DNA of 64,000 bases from Acinetobacter rongchengensis (GTDB lineage Bacteria; Pseudomonadota; Gammaproteobacteria; Pseudomonadales; Moraxellaceae), in the NCBI RefSeq assembly GCF_003611475.1, contig NZ_RAXT01000013.1:1-64000 (forward strand), read 5' to 3'. Positions 1 through 21,139 of this stretch are shown piece by piece. The notes below the pieces were generated by a model. The model searched no databases and had not been told where the DNA came from. It was given only the letters and a program-made list of their open reading frames with translations. The position numbers were made by a program, and so were the translations under genes. Position 1 is the stretch's first letter. Each line of letters begins with the position of its first letter.

Positions 1-5
1 TTTTT

Positions 6-33
6 ATTTCGCATAACGCCCATTATGTTAAAT
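6..33 (+). repeat. XerC/XerD recombination site (pdif-like), left
   Basis: A 28 bp dif-like site. The XerC arm ATTTCGCATAA is followed by the 6 bp spacer CGCCCA and the XerD arm TTATGTTAAAT. The XerD arm is the canonical dif XerD arm. The spacer differs from the TGTATA typical of gammaproteobacterial chromosomal dif and resembles spacers of pdif sites known from Acinetobacter plasmids (from memory). A second copy in inverse orientation lies at 873-900, so the two enclose the gene between them. That this is a Xer substrate is inferred from the arms. Confidence 0.8.
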
Positions 34-101
34 GGACTATCTGATTCAACTTTCAGTGTGAATTTGCTATAAGTATCCTTGGCTGATTAAAGGTTAGAAT
101 A

Positions 102-842
102 ATGCTGTATGTTGATGAAAGTATTCAAAGTGACTTGGGGTATATTTGTATAGGTTTTGCTTTTTGTGAAGCTGATCCAGCTCTACTAGTTAAAAATGCG
201 TTAATAGAAGCAGGTTTTAATCCCAGTCAAGATGAATATAAAAGTAGTTATAAAATGAATGGTTCTGATTCTGCTGCTAGGCATCAATTACGAGAAGCTA
301 TATCAGCGATTGTAATTGAACACTGTAAAATAGGAATTTATATTGCTTCTAGTGACGAAAGAAGAGAGCTTTTAAAGCATATTGAAGATTGTAGTCGGCT
401 AATTATTCGAAATAACAAATTGAAAACGCCTCAATCAGTTTTTATTGATGAAGGCATTCATGGTTTAAAAATATATGATGATGAACTTATCATAGAACAT
501 AACCAAGATTCAAAAATAACGTCAGGAATACAACTAGCTGATTATATAGCTTATCACTGCTCTCTTTTATTAAAATCAAATTTACTTGAGTTTTCAAAAG
601 AAGTTTTAGTTAAGGGTCCACATCCATTAGAAAATGAAATGGTTGAATTGGATTGGCTAACAAGAACAGCATTAAGACGAAATTTTTTTCATGAATATCG
701 GGATGTTGAAAAAATTGAAGGTGATGATTGGGGATTTAAAATTAGTGAATATGGATTTTTCTGCTCTCCAAATTTAGATCCAAGAATTAAAGAAATTGCA
801 GAAGATACTTTTAAGGAAATGTATTTTGGATGTGTGTGGTAA
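102..842 (+). CDS. DUF3800-like protein in a Xer-flanked module
   Basis: A 246-residue cytoplasmic protein without signal peptide or membrane segment. It opens with YVDES and has a late motif SGIQLADYIAY at about residues 140-150. An N-terminal D-E-S and a late Q-x-AD-x-x motif are the hallmarks of DUF3800, a family with a predicted RNase H-like fold whose members often occur in mobile or defence contexts; the biochemical role is unknown. The gene is visibly more AT-rich than the core genes to its right. It is the only gene between two inverted pdif-like sites, which makes it the cargo of a Xer module. No partner antitoxin or toxin is present. The ribosome-binding site is weak (GGTTAGA). The family call is by motif only. 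Confidence 0.6.
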   Translation: MLYVDESIQSDLGYICIGFAFCEADPALLVKNALIEAGFNPSQDEYKSSYKMNGSDSAARHQLREAISAIVIEHCKIGIYIASSDERRELLKHIEDCSRLIIRNNKLKTPQSVFIDEGIHGLKIYDDELIIEHNQDSKITSGIQLADYIAYHCSLLLKSNLLEFSKEVLVKGPHPLENEMVELDWLTRTALRRNFFHEYRDVEKIEGDDWGFKISEYGFFCSPNLDPRIKEIAEDTFKEMYFGCVW

Positions 843-872
843 TAAATACTGATTATGTATAGATATTTCTAA

Positions 873-900
873 AATTAACATAATACGCCTTATGCGAAAT
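873..900 (-). repeat. XerC/XerD recombination site (pdif-like), right
   Basis: Read on the minus strand, the XerC arm is ATTTCGCATAA, the spacer GGCGTA and the XerD arm TTATGTTAATT. The XerC arm is identical to that of the site at 6-33 and the XerD arm differs at one position; the spacers differ at three of six. The XerD arms of the two sites face inward. Inversely oriented pairs around one or a few genes are the signature of dif modules on Acinetobacter plasmids. Confidence 0.8.
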
Positions 901-937
901 CATTTACGTTAATTGTTTTATTTCAATAAGTTGTAAT

Positions 938-980
938 CCATAAAAAAGCCTAACTTACGCAAGCAGAGGCTTTTTATGGA
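938..980. terminator. Bidirectional intrinsic terminator
   Basis: The inverted repeat TCCATAAAAA-AGCCT / AGGC-TTTTTATGGA encloses a loop of about 15 bases and gives U-runs on both strands. It lies between the DUF3800 gene (plus) and the end of the CcsA-like gene (minus) and probably serves both. Confidence 0.65.
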
Positions 981-1047
981 TTTTCCCCACCTCATCTCTT
1001 TGTTTTAACCATTGTTCTGCTATTTTGATTAGCCTAGCTCAATCAGC

Positions 1048-1857
1048 TTACCGATGCAAAATCATTTCCAATACAAATTTAGAACCAATAAATCCAATTG
1101 CCAATAAGAAGAATCCAATGATGGTAAAGCGAATAGCTTTTTGACCACGCCAACCAAATTTATAATGACCAATTAGCAATGCACCATACACAAACCAAGA
1201 TACAATACTGAAGGCTGTTTTATGTGCTAAGTGTTGAGCAAAGAAGTTATCAATCGTGAAGAAACCAAAACCTAAAGCGATGGTAAGCAGTAAAAAACCT
1301 GTCATTAACATATCAAACAATAATGATTCCATTGCTTGATAAGCAGGTAAGAAATTGACCCAAATACGTTTTTTTTGTTTCTTTTTCAGTTCACGGTTTT
1401 GAAACCAAATCAAAACGGCTTGTATGGTTGCCATGAGTAAAACCGCATAGGCGGATAATGATAAAATAATATGAATATCTAAACCAAAAGAATGTTGTTC
1501 CATGAATTGATCAGGTTTACTAAAACAAAAACCTAAAATCAGACCAAATGCAGCGACAGGAATCCCAATCAAATTTAACGACAATACAGGACGATAAGTA
1601 CTGTAGAGCATACTCAGTAATAACATTAAACCAGAGGTAAATGACATCAAATTAAAAACGTCATAGTTAATCCCTAGTGGTGTAACGACATCGTTATACA
1701 GTACACTTGCGTGTAAGATCAGTCCTAAACCTGACACGATGCCAATAAACCAAGGATTTGCAGGACGTTTAGACATTAAGTGCATAAACAGATACCAAAA
1801 TGAAGAGGTATAGGCAATTAATGCTAAAATCGTATAAACCAAGGGCAGGCTAATCAT
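1048..1857 (-). CDS. CcsA/YpjD-type inner-membrane protein (cytochrome c assembly family)
   Basis: A 269-residue polytopic protein with about eight hydrophobic segments. It belongs to the CcmC/CcsA haem-handling superfamily, in the branch of E. coli YpjD found next to ffh in many gammaproteobacteria. Family members move haem across the inner membrane for cytochrome c maturation, but the YpjD branch has no proven function. A histidine-containing segment near residues 120-130 (EQHSFGLDIHIILS) and another near 225 (AHKTAFSIVSW) are candidate haem-contact positions. The tryptophan-rich WWD signature of full CcsA proteins is not obvious, which fits the YpjD branch. It is divergent from ffh, with a 144 bp shared promoter region. 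Confidence 0.75.
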   Translation of the reverse strand: MISLPLVYTILALIAYTSSFWYLFMHLMSKRPANPWFIGIVSGLGLILHASVLYNDVVTPLGINYDVFNLMSFTSGLMLLLSMLYSTYRPVLSLNLIGIPVAAFGLILGFCFSKPDQFMEQHSFGLDIHIILSLSAYAVLLMATIQAVLIWFQNRELKKKQKKRIWVNFLPAYQAMESLLFDMLMTGFLLLTIALGFGFFTIDNFFAQHLAHKTAFSIVSWFVYGALLIGHYKFGWRGQKAIRFTIIGFFLLAIGFIGSKFVLEMILHR

Positions 1858-2001
1858 GTCAAACCTTTTTCAGGATGATGAATATTCATGTTATAAGATA
1901 TAAATTCCATGTGAACTACAGTATCCTATAGCATCTTGGGCATAAATTTTCTATTTTAAGAAAGATTTTTTTGCTACTAGCTATTTTAAGCGGATTTTGC
2001 A

Positions 2002-3408
2002 ATGTTTGATACCTTAACAGAACGACTCACGCAGAGTTTAAGAAATGTTACTGGCTCAGGGCAGCTAACCGAAGACAATATTAAAGATACGTTACGTGAA
2101 GTACGTATGGCACTTCTTGAAGCAGATGTTGCCTTACCTGTAACTCGTGAGTTTATTGCGAAAGTTAAGGAAGAGGCATTAGGTCAAGAAGTGATGACAC
2201 AGCTATCACCTGGTCAGGCTTTTGTGAAAATCGTGTATGACGAACTCACAAAGATGATGGGTGCGGCGAATGAAAGTCTTGATTTGGCTGCAAAACCTCC
2301 AGTTGTTGTGCTTTTAGCAGGTTTGCAAGGTGCGGGTAAAACCACCACTGCTGCAAAGCTTGCTCGCTTTTTAAAAGAGCGTCAAAAGAAAAAAGTAGCT
2401 ATGGTATCTGCCGACGTTTACCGTCCAGCAGCGATCAAACAACTACAAACCGTTGCAGCAGAAGTTGGTGTTGATTTTATCGAATCTGAGGCTTCAGAAG
2501 ACCCAATCAAAATTGCGCAACGTGCGATTGGTCAAGCGAAGATCAACTTCAATGATGTTTTGATTGTCGATACAGCAGGTCGTTTACATGTCGATGATGA
2601 CATGATGGACGAAATCAAAGCATTACATGCTGCGATTAATCCAACTGAAACTTTATTTGTTGTCGATGCGATGACAGGTCAAGATGCGGCAAATACTGCA
2701 AAAGCATTTAATGATGCATTACCGCTGACAGGTGTGATTCTCACCAAAACTGATGGTGATGCACGTGGTGGTGCGGCACTTTCTGTACGTGCGATCACAG
2801 GTAAACCAATCAAATTCTTAGGTATGGGCGAAAAGCTTGATGCCTTAGAGCCATTCCATCCTGAGCGTGTTGCACAACGTATTTTGGGTATGGGTGATGT
2901 CCTTTCTTTAGTCGAAGAAGTTGAACGTAAGATCGACAAAGAAAAAGCTGAAAAAATGGCGAAAAAATTGCAAAAAGGCGGTAGCTTCAACTTTGAAGAT
3001 ATGCTGATGCAATTTGAACAAATGAATAAGATGGGTGGCATGATGGGCTTCTTGGATAAATTGCCTGGCATGAGTAATTCAGGTATTCAAGATGCGATTG
3101 CGCAAGCGAATCCTGAAAAACAAGTGAAAAAAATGGAAGCGATTATCCAATCGATGACCATTAAAGAACGCCGTAACCCAGATTTGATGAACCCTAGCCG
3201 TAAAAAACGTATTGCAGCGGGTTGTGGTATGGATGTTGTAGAGGTGAATAAACTCATCAAACAACATGCGCAAATGGCGAAAATGATGAAAAAGTTTGCC
3301 AATCCATCGGGTATGGCGAAAATGATGCGTTCATTGAGCGGTATGCAAAAACAATTCGGCGGTGGCGGTGGTATGGGCCCATTGTTTGGAAACAATGATA
3401 AAAAATAA
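2002..3408 (+). CDS. ffh: Signal recognition particle protein Ffh (SRP54)
   Basis: GTPase of the bacterial signal recognition particle. It binds signal sequences on ribosomes together with 4.5S RNA and hands them to FtsY at the membrane. The 468 residues show the N domain (about 1-90), the G domain with P-loop GLQGAGKT at 107-114, DTAGR and TKTDGDARGG motifs, and a C-terminal M domain rich in methionine (FEDMLMQFEQMNKMGGMMGF and a Gly/Met-rich tail). The length is normal for the family. It is a single-gene unit ending in a strong terminator. The start ATG at 2002 gives the usual MFDTLTERL N-terminus. Confidence 0.98.
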   Translation: MFDTLTERLTQSLRNVTGSGQLTEDNIKDTLREVRMALLEADVALPVTREFIAKVKEEALGQEVMTQLSPGQAFVKIVYDELTKMMGAANESLDLAAKPPVVVLLAGLQGAGKTTTAAKLARFLKERQKKKVAMVSADVYRPAAIKQLQTVAAEVGVDFIESEASEDPIKIAQRAIGQAKINFNDVLIVDTAGRLHVDDDMMDEIKALHAAINPTETLFVVDAMTGQDAANTAKAFNDALPLTGVILTKTDGDARGGAALSVRAITGKPIKFLGMGEKLDALEPFHPERVAQRILGMGDVLSLVEEVERKIDKEKAEKMAKKLQKGGSFNFEDMLMQFEQMNKMGGMMGFLDKLPGMSNSGIQDAIAQANPEKQVKKMEAIIQSMTIKERRNPDLMNPSRKKRIAAGCGMDVVEVNKLIKQHAQMAKMMKKFANPSGMAKMMRSLSGMQKQFGGGGGMGPLFGNNDKK

Positions 3409-7503: not shown

Positions 7504-10500
7504 ATGCGTTTAAGCAGCTTAAAACTTTCTGGCTTTAAATCTTTTGCCGATAGTACAACATTACAATTCAAAGATAACCGCACAGCGGTAGTGGGCCCGA
7601 ATGGTTGCGGTAAATCCAATGTGATTGACGCTATTCGTTGGGTAATGGGAGAGTCTAGCGCTCGCCAGTTACGTGGTGGGAGCATGCAAGATGTTATTTT
7701 TACAGGAACGGCAAAACGTAAACCTGTGGGAATGGCAAGTGTAGAACTGCGCTTTGAAAATACTTATGGCAAATTGGGGGGAGCATACAATGCTTATGCT
7801 GAACTCGCAGTACGCCGTCAGGTTAACCGTGATGGAAAATCTGAATATTTTCTGAATGGAACCAAGTGTCGCCGTCGTGATATTACCGATATTTTTCTTG
7901 GGACAGGTTTAGGACCACGTTCATACGCGATTATTGAACAGGGGATGATTAACCGTTTGGTTGATGCAAAACCTGAAGAAATGCGTGTATTCATTGAAGA
8001 AGCCGCAGGCGTGTCACGCTATCAAGCGCGTCGTCGTGAGACTCTACAACATCTCGAACATACCACTCAAAATTTAGATCGTCTTGAAGATATTGCTTCG
8101 GAATTAAAATCGCAGCTTAAAACCTTAAAGCGTCAGTCTGAAACAGCGGTTCAATATAAAACCTTAGAAACTGAAATTCGTACTTTAAAAATTGAAATTC
8201 TTTCTTTCCAATGTGAACGCAGTAGTCGTTTGCAAGAAGAATATACGGTTGAAATGGATCAACTGGGAGAGCATTTTAAACTCGTTCGCTCAGATATGAG
8301 TACTTTGGAACATGATTTAACCTCGACCAATGAGTTATTTCAGCGTTTGATTCAACAATCGACGCCTTTGCAAAATGAATGGCAACAAGCTGAAAAGAAA
8401 CTTTCTGAATTACAAATGACTTTGGAACAGAAGCAAACATTGTTTCAACAAAACTCTGAAGCTTTAGGACAATTAGAACAGCAAAAAATTCAGAATAAAG
8501 AGAAAATTCAATTGATGGAATTGCAATTGGAAACATTGCAAACGCAATTGGAACAGCAGTCTGAACACCTACAGCGTTCAGAAGCGGATACGCAACAACG
8601 TGGTCAAGCTTTTAGTGATATTAAAGCGCAACAACTGCAAGCACAGCAACAGTATGAACAGGTTAAAGTGCAAGTTGAAAAGCAGCAGCAACAAAAAGCA
8701 CAGATGCAGGCGCAGATTGAGCAGCTTGCAAAAAATGTAGCACGAATTGAGCAGCAAAAAGATACCTTAAAAACACAGGCAACACAGATCCAAAGTCAGT
8801 TCCAAACTGAAGATTTAACGCAGTTGGAACAGAATAAAGCTTCGGCTCACGAGACGATTGCTCAGCTAGAACAAAAACTGATTGAATCAAAATCCGAACT
8901 GGAGCAAGTTCAAGAGCAAATGAGTCAACAAAAAGTTCAGATTTCCAATTTGAAAGCTGAACTGCAAGTGTTGCAATCTGAACAGAAAAACTTAAACCAA
9001 TTGATGGCGAAAAGTGCAGTAAAAACAGATCACAATACAACTCAATTGATGCAAGTGCTTAAACTGAATGAACATGGTAAAACACATGCACATTTAGTCG
9101 AAAAGTTTTTAGCCAAATGGCTCTCTGCTCAACTTGTCGATGAGCATTCAGACTTTGCGGAAAGCATTGCACGTCAGCTTAAAGTGTCTACTTCTTTGGA
9201 TAAAATTCAATTCAATCAACTGCCATGTTTGGCTGATTGGATTGATTCACCACAATACTCATTGTGGAATCAAGTAGCGATCGCTGAAACACTGAGTCAT
9301 GCATTAACGTTACAAAACCAGTTAAGCAATGGGCAAAGTATTCTCACATTAGATGGATATCATCTTGGACAGGATTGGGTGATCGGTCTATTCTTTGATG
9401 AATCTAGTCAAGCAGCACAAGGTGCACTCAGTCATCGGATTCGTTTAGACGAAATTCAACAACAACTCGCTGATTTACAACCTAAATTGATTGAAGCCGA
9501 AGCTTTATTGCCAAACTTTAATCAGCAAATCAGTGATTTACAAAAACAGATCCAAATTGACCAAGACGCTTTAAAAAATCAGCAAAAAATATTACAGCAG
9601 TTTGATGTACAAATTGCCAAACAACAAAGTGCTGCTCAGGCATTTGAACTACAAAAAGTTCAATTAAATAGTCAGTTACAACAGTTAGACGAGCAGCTTG
9701 AAGAAGATGCAATGCAAAAGGACGATCTTGAAATTGACATGCATTCTGTCATTCTCAAGCTTGAACAAAATCTACCTGAATTTAAAACACTACAATATAA
9801 ATTGGATGAGTTAAATGAGCAGGTTGAGGAACAGCAACAACAGTTGCAACTCAAACAGCAAGATTTTGAAACGACTCGTCGTTTAGCAGAACAGAATAAG
9901 CAACAAATCGAATTGCTTGAAAAAGATGTCACATTTACCAAAGCGCAATATCAACAAATATTGGCGCAAATGGAACAAGCTAAAAAGTTTGTAGATCCCA
10001 TCCAATTGGAATTGCCAAGTTTAGAATCACAATATTCTGAGCAAGCACTACAAACTGAAAAATTGCAAAAAACTTGGCAAGAATGGCAAGTTGAATTGAA
10101 TAATATTCAATCTAAGCAGCAAAAACTGACCGAAATGCGTCATTTACATCAGCAAAATGATGAGCAATTACGCACCAAATTGGAAGAGAAACGTTTAGCA
10201 TGGCAGTCAGCAAAGTCTGATTTACAGCATTATTCAGATCAACTCAAAGAGATGAATGCGACGATTAAGCAAGGTGTGCTGATTGATTTACCTGTACATC
10301 AAGAAAAGTTTGAAAAAGCGCAACGTCAATTTGAAAAACTCGGTGCTGTGAATTTAGCGGCTTCTGAAGAATATGAAGAAGTATCTAAACGTTTTGATGA
10401 ATTAACTCATCAGATGCAGGATTTGGAAAATACGGTTGAGCAACTCAAAGATGCGATGAAGAGTATTGACCAAGAAACCAAAAAACTATTTATGGGAACT

Positions 10501-10956
10501 TTTGATCGGGTTAATAATGAACTCAAAATTTTATTCCCTAAAGTTTTCGATGGTGGTGAAGCAAGTTTAAGTCTTGAGGATGATTGGCAGTCTGGTGTTA
10601 AATTGATGGCTCGTCCACCAGGAAAGAAAAATAGCTCATTGGCGTTATTATCGGGTGGAGAAAAAGCACTGACTGCTTTGGCATTGGTTTTTGCAATCTT
10701 CCGTTTAAATCCTGCACCATTCTGCGTTTTGGATGAAGTTGATGCACCTTTAGACGATGCCAACGTCGGTCGGTTTTGTAATTTGGTAAAAGAGCTTTCT
10801 GATCAGGTTCAATTCATTTACATTACACATAATAAAGTTGCAATGACGATGGCAACCGATTTGCTGGGCGTGACGATGCCAGAACCAGGAACATCAAAAC
10901 TCGTCACTGTGAATTTGGAAGAGGCAAGAGAATACGGTTTAGCCGCGGAGTCGTAG
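7504..10956 (+). CDS. smc: Chromosome segregation ATPase SMC
   Basis: Condensin core subunit that organises and segregates the chromosome together with ScpA and ScpB, which are encoded in this window at 40.4-41.8 kb. In the 1150-residue protein the Walker A GPNGCGKS lies at 31-38, long glutamine-rich coiled coils flank a hinge at roughly 510-640, and the C-terminal ABC signature LLSGGEKAL is followed by Walker B FCVLDEVDAPLDDANV. The length is typical of SMC. The gene is followed one base later by zipA, so the two are likely cotranscribed. Confidence 0.97.
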   Translation: MRLSSLKLSGFKSFADSTTLQFKDNRTAVVGPNGCGKSNVIDAIRWVMGESSARQLRGGSMQDVIFTGTAKRKPVGMASVELRFENTYGKLGGAYNAYAELAVRRQVNRDGKSEYFLNGTKCRRRDITDIFLGTGLGPRSYAIIEQGMINRLVDAKPEEMRVFIEEAAGVSRYQARRRETLQHLEHTTQNLDRLEDIASELKSQLKTLKRQSETAVQYKTLETEIRTLKIEILSFQCERSSRLQEEYTVEMDQLGEHFKLVRSDMSTLEHDLTSTNELFQRLIQQSTPLQNEWQQAEKKLSELQMTLEQKQTLFQQNSEALGQLEQQKIQNKEKIQLMELQLETLQTQLEQQSEHLQRSEADTQQRGQAFSDIKAQQLQAQQQYEQVKVQVEKQQQQKAQMQAQIEQLAKNVARIEQQKDTLKTQATQIQSQFQTEDLTQLEQNKASAHETIAQLEQKLIESKSELEQVQEQMSQQKVQISNLKAELQVLQSEQKNLNQLMAKSAVKTDHNTTQLMQVLKLNEHGKTHAHLVEKFLAKWLSAQLVDEHSDFAESIARQLKVSTSLDKIQFNQLPCLADWIDSPQYSLWNQVAIAETLSHALTLQNQLSNGQSILTLDGYHLGQDWVIGLFFDESSQAAQGALSHRIRLDEIQQQLADLQPKLIEAEALLPNFNQQISDLQKQIQIDQDALKNQQKILQQFDVQIAKQQSAAQAFELQKVQLNSQLQQLDEQLEEDAMQKDDLEIDMHSVILKLEQNLPEFKTLQYKLDELNEQVEEQQQQLQLKQQDFETTRRLAEQNKQQIELLEKDVTFTKAQYQQILAQMEQAKKFVDPIQLELPSLESQYSEQALQTEKLQKTWQEWQVELNNIQSKQQKLTEMRHLHQQNDEQLRTKLEEKRLAWQSAKSDLQHYSDQLKEMNATIKQGVLIDLPVHQEKFEKAQRQFEKLGAVNLAASEEYEEVSKRFDELTHQMQDLENTVEQLKDAMKSIDQETKKLFMGTFDRVNNELKILFPKVFDGGEASLSLEDDWQSGVKLMARPPGKKNSSLALLSGGEKALTALALVFAIFRLNPAPFCVLDEVDAPLDDANVGRFCNLVKELSDQVQFIYITHNKVAMTMATDLLGVTMPEPGTSKLVTVNLEEAREYGLAAES

Positions 10957-10957
10957 T

Positions 10958-12019
10958 ATGGAAGTCACCACAATTGTTGGGATTGTTGTTGCAGTAATCA
11001 TCATCTTAGTGGGTTTAAGAATGGTGCTACGAAAACCAAATGATGCTGCACCATCGTTAGAATCTGAATTGCATATCAATCAAGAGTGTAATCAGCCTGT
11101 CATTCCACGTCATGTACGTGACCAATTACAAGCGGATCGATTGCCTGAAGACAAAGCACGTGTTGAACCGAGTTTAAGTGCGCTTGATTCTGTTGAAGTG
11201 GCAGAAGAAAAATCGCAACAGCTGACTGTTCAATCGACAGATATGGATCAAGTTAAGACTGAACTTAATGCTTTTGATTCATCAGAAAAAGACCTGAAAA
11301 TTGCTGTTGTAAGTGATTCAGAAACACAATCAGAATTACATATTGATGCTCAAACAGAGCAAACAGTTGAAACATCAAATTCTCTTACAACAGATACGTC
11401 TGCTGTTATTTCTGAAAATGAGCAGTCAACTGCTCACGTTGAAGATGCTAAACCTGTTGCTCAAGTTGAAGTGTTTCAGCTAAATGAACATGTGGAAACT
11501 GCTGAAATCAAAGAATTTGATGAAGAAAGTAGCATCTTGGATGTACATTTAAACCAACAACAACGTCATGATGATGAAAGTGTATTATCCAATGCAGAAA
11601 GTATCATTGCGTTGAATGTTTATCCAAATCCTCGTAAAGCTTTATCAGGTGATAAAACTTTAAAAGTGTTGTTAAAATATGGATTACGTTTTGGTGAGTT
11701 GATGTGTTTTCATCGTTATGAAAACCCAGAAGAGGAAAGCCCACTTTTATTTTCGGTGTTGCGTGTAACTGAAAATGGCCCTGAGGGGTTTGATTTAGAA
11801 TCATTATCGACCGAACAAGTTCAAGGCTTAGCCTTTTTCCTCGCTTTACCACATCCAAATGTGCAAAAAGGCTTTGATACCATGGTGAGTATTGCAGGCT
11901 TAATTGCACGTGAAATTGATGGAACAGTTTATGATGAAAACAATCTTGAATTTACACCTCAGTTAAAAGAACATTGGCGTCATACAGCGATTGATTATCG
12001 CTCAGGTCAAGAGGCTTAG
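10958..12019 (+). CDS. zipA: Cell division protein ZipA
   Basis: Inner-membrane anchor for FtsZ at the division ring. The 353-residue protein has one N-terminal membrane helix (about residues 5-24, TIVGIVVAVIIILVGLRMVL), a long acidic and low-complexity linker (about 30-200), and a C-terminal FtsZ-binding ZipA domain (about 205-345; IIALNVYPNPRKALSGDKTL and GFDTMVSIAGLIAREIDGTVYDE). The smc-zipA-ligA order is common in Acinetobacter and Pseudomonas. It starts one base after the smc stop. Confidence 0.93.
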   Translation: MEVTTIVGIVVAVIIILVGLRMVLRKPNDAAPSLESELHINQECNQPVIPRHVRDQLQADRLPEDKARVEPSLSALDSVEVAEEKSQQLTVQSTDMDQVKTELNAFDSSEKDLKIAVVSDSETQSELHIDAQTEQTVETSNSLTTDTSAVISENEQSTAHVEDAKPVAQVEVFQLNEHVETAEIKEFDEESSILDVHLNQQQRHDDESVLSNAESIIALNVYPNPRKALSGDKTLKVLLKYGLRFGELMCFHRYENPEEESPLLFSVLRVTENGPEGFDLESLSTEQVQGLAFFLALPHPNVQKGFDTMVSIAGLIAREIDGTVYDENNLEFTPQLKEHWRHTAIDYRSGQEA

Positions 12020-19973: not shown

Positions 19974-21139
19974 GTGGCGTGAATTCACATCTTGAACATT
20001 TTTCGCAACAAATAGATGAATTAAAACAGCAAGGCAATTTGCGTCAATTTACGACCAATATTCAGCAGCAACGTTTTATCACTATTGATCATCATCAAAT
20101 GCTGAATTTAGCTTCTAATGATTATTTAGGTTTAGCTGCGGATGCTCAGTTGCGTGAACAATTCTTTGATGAAACACCGAATGCTCAGCGAAGGATGAGT
20201 TCGTCTTCATCTCGCTTGCTGACTGGAAATTTTCCTGAATATGAGCAATTAGAAGCACGTTTAAGTCAAGCTTTTCATGGGCGAGCAGCACTGCTATTTA
20301 ATAGTGGTTATCACATGAATATTGGTATTTTACCTGCATTAGCAGACAGTAAAACCTTGATTCTTGCAGATAAATTGATTCATGCCAGTATGATTGATGG
20401 GATTCGTTTATCGAAAGCCAAATATATACGTTATCGTCATAATGATTTGGCTCATCTCACTCAACTTTTACAGCAATATCATGATGATGCTGAATTTGAG
20501 CGAATGATCGTGGTAACTGAATCAATTTTTAGTATGGATGGTGATGAAACTGATTTGGCTGCATTGGTTCAGATAAAAAAACAATTTTCTAAAGTCATGT
20601 TATATGTTGATGAAGCACATGCAATTGGGGTTCGCGGTGTTCAGGGCTTAGGTTGCGCTGAACAGTATGCAGTGATTGATGATATTGATTTTTTAGTGGG
20701 TGCTTTAGGTAAAGCAATGGCATCGATTGGTGGTTATTTAATTTGCCATAGCGTTATCCGTGATTACTTGATTAATCGTATGCGTCCCTTGATTTTTAGT
20801 ACAGCTCAACCACCGATTTGTATGGCATGGACAGATTTTATTTTTCAAAAAGTACAGGCTTTAAATTCGCAACGTCAGCATTTACAGCAAATGAGTCAGT
20901 CCTTACAACAAGCTGTTCAAAAGAAAGGTTTTGATTGTCCATCGACTTCACATATCGTACCTGTGATTATTGGTGAATCGAGCAAAACTGTTGAAAAGGC
21001 CAAAGCCTTGCAAAAAGCGGGTTTTTACATCATGCCAGTACGGCCACCAACTGTGCCACAACATCGTTCACGTCTGCGTATTTCCTTAACAACGCAAATT
21101 TTACATGCTGACATTGATCAACTTGTGACTTTATTGTGA
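19970..21139 (+). CDS. bioF: 8-amino-7-oxononanoate synthase
   Basis: PLP-dependent condensation of pimeloyl-ACP and alanine. The 389 residues have the alpha-oxoamine synthase fold with [30 protein letters not shown] and the PLP lysine in [13 protein letters not shown]. The start overlaps the bioA stop as ATGA, indicating translational coupling. The gene lies within bioA-bioF-bioC-bioD. Confidence 0.96.

Follow-up and report, generated by a model that had tools for sequence, protein, structure and literature searches.

A D-type dif module beside ypjD in the Acinetobacter chromosome, and class-specific elements at XerC/XerD sites

How does a gene enclosed by two XerC/XerD sites come to lie beside ypjD and ffh in a chromosome, and is it exchanged there? 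The question is raised by the first 900 bases of the window, a 64,000-nucleotide stretch of the Acinetobacter rongchengensis genome whose base 1 is base 1 of contig C35 (81,118 bp; assembly of 4.10 Mb in 248 contigs). A class-2 site on the forward strand (6–33, spacer CGCCCA) and a class-1 site on the reverse strand (873–900, spacer GGCGTA) bound the module, class-1 denoting an NNNGTA spacer with TTATGTTAATT and class-2 an NNNCCA spacer with TTATGTTAAAT. Scored against the consensus ATTTCGCATAA-N6-TTATGTTAAAT, the left site is an exact match (0 mismatches) and the right site has 1 mismatch; the two-site chance test gave an expectation of 0.01 per window, and none of 100 shuffles contained two sites. 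The two 28-bp sites are inverted, with their XerD arms facing inwards as in a D-type dif module, and enclose an interior (34–872) with a GC content of 0.308, against 0.381 for the whole window. The single open reading frame (ORF) between them (102–842, forward strand) encodes 246 residues and matches DUF3800 (PF12686) at 24.7 bits, above the Pfam gathering cut-off of 21. The region 6–900 is therefore a D-type dif module in the chromosome with a DUF3800 gene as its cargo, and the positions, orientation and spacers of the sites and the one AT-rich gene between them are as the initial annotation had described.

The DUF3800 protein was present in one of the 175 Acinetobacter genomes searched, and the sister species A. 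piscicola carries unrelated DNA at this place; the gene and its sites are thus not fixed in all relatives, whereas fixation would, by the terms of the annotation, have refuted the module. A search of genome contigs for relatives of the protein gave 22 candidates, none of which was confirmed, and its relatives on plasmids (7 records, 25–29% identity) belong to other genera only. No defence system was found in a PADLOC run, and a single-sequence structure model of the protein (mean pLDDT 41) was too poor for use.

To the right, the module is followed by a sequence element, termed E1 (901–1042, reverse strand), by the ypjD/ccsA-like gene that forms the right border of the slot (1048–1857, reverse strand) and by ffh (2002–3408, forward strand); the Cytochrom_C_asm and SRP54 domains found by Pfam confirm both gene neighbours. 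Rightward from ypjD, A. piscicola LW15 is 91.6% identical over approximately 10 kb. A scan of the whole genome at up to 3 mismatches located 27 sites, with 0 in the reversed control, and sites with the spacer CGCCCA, or with a spacer one base off GGCGTA, also occur on other contigs. As the annotation had anticipated, neither window site is dif: identification of either as the main chromosomal dif, the left one included, was rejected because their spacers differ from the TGTATA of dif, a single site near the terminus, and an exact TGTATA dif sits on contig C236. A position of the slot beside dif in relatives was likewise rejected, dif and ypjD being 0.76–1.04 Mb apart in four single-contig genomes (G009, G011, G016 and G020).

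E1 adjoins the XerC arm of the class-1 site. The window copy scores 77.4 bits with a profile model that includes it; a model built from plasmid copies only (17 rows) gives 50.2 bits (E = 1.2e-14). The E1 alignment contains two GTGGAAC-type repeats, a terminator-like hairpin (937–980 in the window, reverse strand, as read from the sequence) and an AT-rich stretch ahead of the XerC arm. A different element, termed E2, stands ahead of class-2 sites. Class specificity was assessed with held-out models on loci fetched by site pattern alone, the sites coming from 60 loci that were the first 30 per pattern and not a random draw (of the 175 genomes, 133 and 116 had matches to the respective patterns); identical copies were excluded, as were sites whose XerC flank was shorter than 120 bp. 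Among the matches listed, E1 was found at 25 of 40 class-1 sites, 1 of 30 class-2 sites and 0 of 11 dif sites, and E2 at 0 of 40, 13 of 30 and 0 of 11, respectively, the dif sites being drawn from other families in the order (5), from Acinetobacter (5) and from the window's genome (1). An initial E1 model, trained on 16 rows of which 10 came from named ypjD loci, found E1 at 24 of 40 class-1 and 0 of 30 class-2 sites among the matches listed, and the Fisher p values for class specificity in that run were 2e-8 for E1 and 3e-6 for E2.

The two site classes thus bear different elements on their XerC side, E1 at class-1 and E2 at class-2, and neither element was found on the XerD side of the sites among the matches listed. 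We propose, from sequence comparison, that E1 and E2 are cis elements of the sites. In the same set of listed matches, 15 of 40 class-1 and 17 of 30 class-2 sites lack their own element; an IS-end sequence stands beside the XerC arm instead at 5 class-1 and 7 class-2 sites, and the rest have neither. At five loci (L201, L205, L216, L229 and L257), some sites without E1 and E2 have a GGGAGCT...CTCCC hairpin immediately next to their XerC arm.

Both elements occur on plasmids. Positions 1–1050 of the window matched 210 plasmid records, 208 of them from Acinetobacter, over the span 824–1034 among the 40 matches listed; the E2 of the window's genome matched 608 records (607 from Acinetobacter), only 13 of which cover 80% of the query. 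In the 16 plasmids inspected, which were picked by likeness to window 1–1050 and give no measure of E1 frequency, orfX is the annotated gene directly beside E1 in 11; elsewhere the neighbour is a small ORF (L197), a rep gene (L071) or no annotated ORF (L073), and one plasmid (L198) has no E1. On the 5,594-bp plasmid p8_010062 (L074, 1200–1328), E1 stands past a relaxase gene with no Xer site and is followed by a GTGCAC inverted repeat. Several plasmids carry an E2–E1 bracket around cargo, for example tet(39) on L075 and L190, and the alcohol dehydrogenase module of p2ABAYE is also bracketed by E2 and E1. E1 accompanies xrs105 and xrs06, and E2 accompanies xrs38 of p2ABAYE. FtsK-independent cleavage is reported for xrs38 and xrs66 in the accessible text of PMC11705084; E2 as its cause was rejected because xrs66 of p1ABAYE lacks the element.

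We consider it likely that the dif module of the window occupies a docking slot for Xer recombination in the chromosome, and that its cargo is exchanged with plasmids through XerC/XerD. Both alternatives offered in the initial annotation, a plasmid module that had entered the chromosome and a chromosomal cassette system using Xer, find support. No exchange event was observed in the data, which counts against it.

The spacing of the elements bears on whether they belong to the sites at all. In the copies with a site that retain the exact motif (49 of 61 for E1 and 35 of 44 for E2, counts that near-copies among plasmids inflate), the E1 motif CGTGRAAC starts 96 bp ahead of the XerC arm in most cases (40 of 49; 95–97 bp in 47 of 49), the intervening stretch having a mean pairwise identity of 0.56, and the start of the E2 motif ATTGGC lies 121–126 bp from the arm in 35 of 35. 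A conserved element thus stands at a nearly constant distance on the XerC side, as at cer and psi, with the motif decayed in the window's own E1. That copy lacks both exact motif copies, and the exact motif is missing in 10 of the 15 ypjD-linked E1 copies; chromosomal E1 may therefore not be maintained.

It is quite conceivable, if somewhat short of probable, that E1 is instead the terminator region of orfX and E2 the region upstream of genes such as brnT, both unrelated to Xer, the slot being a captured plasmid fragment whose cargo differs by ordinary recombination. The position of E1 directly after orfX on 11 of the 16 inspected plasmids and the terminator-like hairpin within it speak for this explanation, as do the E2 copies that adjoin brnT on several plasmids, the E1 without a site past the relaxase gene of L074 and the motif decay in chromosomal copies. 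However, the elements track site class and not neighbour: E1 also follows ypjD, rep (L071) and relaxase genes, and E2 has other neighbours too, among them the Dus gene in the window's genome. Distances measured on the same molecules (19 of 32 rows, those with an exact motif) point the same way, the motif-to-XerC distance being 88–97 bp, and 95–97 bp in 18 of 19, whereas the distance from stop codon to motif varies over 48–123 bp in the 19 cases; the distance from stop codon to XerC arm is mostly 126–154 bp, and 218–219 bp in three.

The slot was surveyed in 80 named Acinetobacter loci fetched by ypjD. A Dus-family gene, which we take to be dusC (the family was assigned by a Pfam run on one copy), follows ypjD within the available stretch in 75 of them, and the gap between the two genes is at most 120 bp in 32. 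E1 begins a few bases past ypjD in 15 of the 80 loci, in 8 of which E2 also stands before the Dus gene; near E1, no site could be recognised in 5 of these 15. With the plasmid-only model, E1 was found after ypjD in 14 of the 80, and in 4 of 20 loci of a further ypjD set that overlaps the 80. In A. piscicola, which is without the slot, homology to the window's genome ends at the ypjD stop codon and resumes approximately 60 bp ahead of the Dus gene, with other genes in between. On contig C184 of the window's genome (L046, from base 20000; 8602–11427), further copies of E1 and E2 occur with one intact and one degenerate site, perhaps another slot.

Cargo ORFs (at least 70 residues, ATG start) differ between most carrier species at the position adjacent to E1: in this between-species comparison, the first gene beside E1 is common to only one pair of the 15 carriers (L098 and L103). 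Other genes are shared within the interval, mostly closer to the Dus gene, including a cold-shock-like gene in L093 and L142 (the first ORF found in L142), an ABC-type gene in L103 and L125, and a gene of approximately 460 codons in L113, L134, L141 and L142. Cargo families include an SBF transporter with an FMN reductase (L141), read as an arsenic cluster, as well as TauE (L140), GNAT (L101), TetR (L116), DUF1232 (L113) and GAD-like/Tdi1 (L098). Pfam assigned no family to the cargo of L144, L127, L096, L110 and L125; a run on one OrfX and three cargo proteins gave none. In genome G010 (L052, 2937–5331), the cargo is a beta-lactamase-family gene (PF00144), and the interval contains a second module too, with four sites of alternating orientation ahead of the Dus gene. 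An 81-residue amino-terminal piece in genome G015 (L051, 13078–13323) resembles the L052 beta-lactamase by eye and is a possible remnant of earlier cargo. Compared between species, the ypjD neighbourhood thus indicates that the interval up to the Dus gene is reused, mostly with different cargo.

A single insertion at ypjD in an ancestor, passed on by vertical descent and then lost in many species, could also account for this distribution, the window's slot included; we judge this unlikely. In a tree of ypjD and ffh, 14 of the 16 carriers (window included) fall in one 16-row group (SH-aLRT 86), and in all those carriers the element starts a few bases past ypjD, as a single insertion would have it. 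The window's genome and A. indicus, however, stand apart from this main group, and the carrier state, labelled without 4 of the 80 loci (L118, L139, L149 and L155), requires 5 changes (14.7 in shuffles), at least 4 of them forced by starred branches. When 64 E1 copies were placed in a tree, the window copy grouped with plasmid and other genome copies (10 rows; 96/93), and the identity to its closest ypjD-linked copy is 0.62, against 0.75 for its closest plasmid copy; the rows were partly picked for likeness to the window, which favours the plasmid grouping. The simplest reading of these sequences is that the window's E1 would be a separate arrival from a plasmid.

The left end of the slot falls at a contig boundary. 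The window opens with TTTTT (1–5), the first bases of C35 and a possible 5-bp duplication from an unassembled IS1202-type insertion. The Dus gene of the window's genome lies on contig C199 (491–1420), which starts with an E2 in the expected orientation (12–159; 61.5 bits, E = 3.2e-18, with a model untrained on this copy) and, when reverse-complemented, ends in TTTTT in the same reading direction as the start of C35. Contigs C35, C12 and C9 each end exactly 5 bp outside an XerC arm, the position that IS1202-family elements use according to the accessible text of PMC10132070. On C9 (L040), an intact IS1202-type element (1842–3333; 457-residue transposase at 1896–3269; TGGGC on both sides) lies 5 bp from the XerC arm of a site at 3334. 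Because of these contig ends and the intact example on C9, an unassembled IS at the left end of C35, in the gap to C199, is plausible; the C9 transposase is the only one of IS1202 type found in the window's genome, and no IS was seen at the C35 and C199 ends. A break in the T-run would fit the spacing as well or better, ATTGGC lying 118 bp from the end of C199, or 123 bp if both T-runs abut. Synteny, E2 and the contig ends suggest that C35 and C199 are adjacent. In A. indicus (L093, 10820–12477), E1 follows ypjD and is succeeded by an IS1202-like transposase gene and a class-1 site, an order like that suspected at the left site of the window. A plasmid or an assembly error in place of a chromosomal slot is very improbable: the left site does sit at a contig end in a 248-contig assembly, but the sequence continues without a break from the right site through E1 to ypjD and ffh, E1 holds the same place in other species, and the usual neighbour, the Dus gene, has a matching E2 at its contig end.

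In the exchange that we favour, it is probably the Xer recombinases of the cell itself that swap genes in the slot, whose order would be ypjD, E1, class-1 site, cargo, class-2 site, the gap, E2 and the Dus gene; the same E1/E2 bracket encloses cargo on Rep_3 plasmids. Because the two sites differ in spacer, the cargo should not excise alone. By the most likely route, a plasmid with a matching pair of sites would recombine first at one site class, forming a cointegrate, which XerC/XerD recombination at the other class would then resolve with the cargo exchanged. We infer the agency of XerCD, this two-step route and the plasmid origin. A more specific version, a two-lock cassette exchange, is doubtful though worth stating: class-1/E1 and class-2/E2 would serve as matched docking ends, with E1 and E2 as accessory sequences, perhaps read in trans by OrfX, and ypjD–Dus slots would be lasting places through which adaptive genes pass between plasmid and chromosome. 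The decay of the E1 motif, the E1 without a site on L074, the sites without elements and xrs66 without E2 all count against it.

The initial annotation knew such modules from Acinetobacter plasmids, which holds, but chromosomal dif modules and extra chromosomal sites had also been published, as the accessible parts of PMC6449649 and PMC12907356 show. Accessory sequences are stated to be absent at such sites in the available text of PMC7399989 and PMC11705084. The latter, as far as its text is accessible, describes XerCD cointegration between plasmids in the laboratory, with no excision, rare cointegrates and no exchange of genes between sites in its experiments. Phrases on flanking or accessory sequences in the accessible portions of PMC12907356 and PMC13141974 yielded nothing relevant, and DUF3800 is absent from that portion of PMC12907356. 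No description of E1, E2 or the ypjD–Dus slot was recognised in the literature searched, which was available in part and mostly without subscription papers, so that a prior description is possible. For the movement of dif modules, class-specific flanks with their near-constant spacing offer a concrete candidate that can be tested; such flanking DNA may help to explain how these genes move. A chromosomal locus kept by a whole species group with changing cargo would make chromosomes regular exchange partners.

The sites cer of ColE1 and psi of pSC101 have a longer element on their XerC side, at a defined distance from the core, and architectural proteins bind this accessory sequence, making recombination intramolecular. 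E1 and E2 resemble them in being XerC-side elements at defined spacing; unlike cer and psi, there are two elements, tied to two site classes. In recombinase-mediated cassette exchange, two incompatible sites flank a cassette that can be replaced by another with the same pair; by analogy, the slot would be a natural counterpart that uses the host's XerCD. The dif (pdif) modules of Acinetobacter Rep_3/OrfX plasmids, as described in the accessible text of PMC13141974, share with the window 28-bp sites, inward XerD arms, one cargo gene and two spacers, and plasmids examined here have the same E1/E2 bracket, whereas the window's module is chromosomal and lies beside ypjD. Chromosomal module islands (PMC12907356) and additional sites (PMC6449649) are alike in lying away from the main dif; the available text of these papers covers isolates or site counts, whereas the present comparison traces a single locus through several species, with cargo that changes and flanks specific to the site class.
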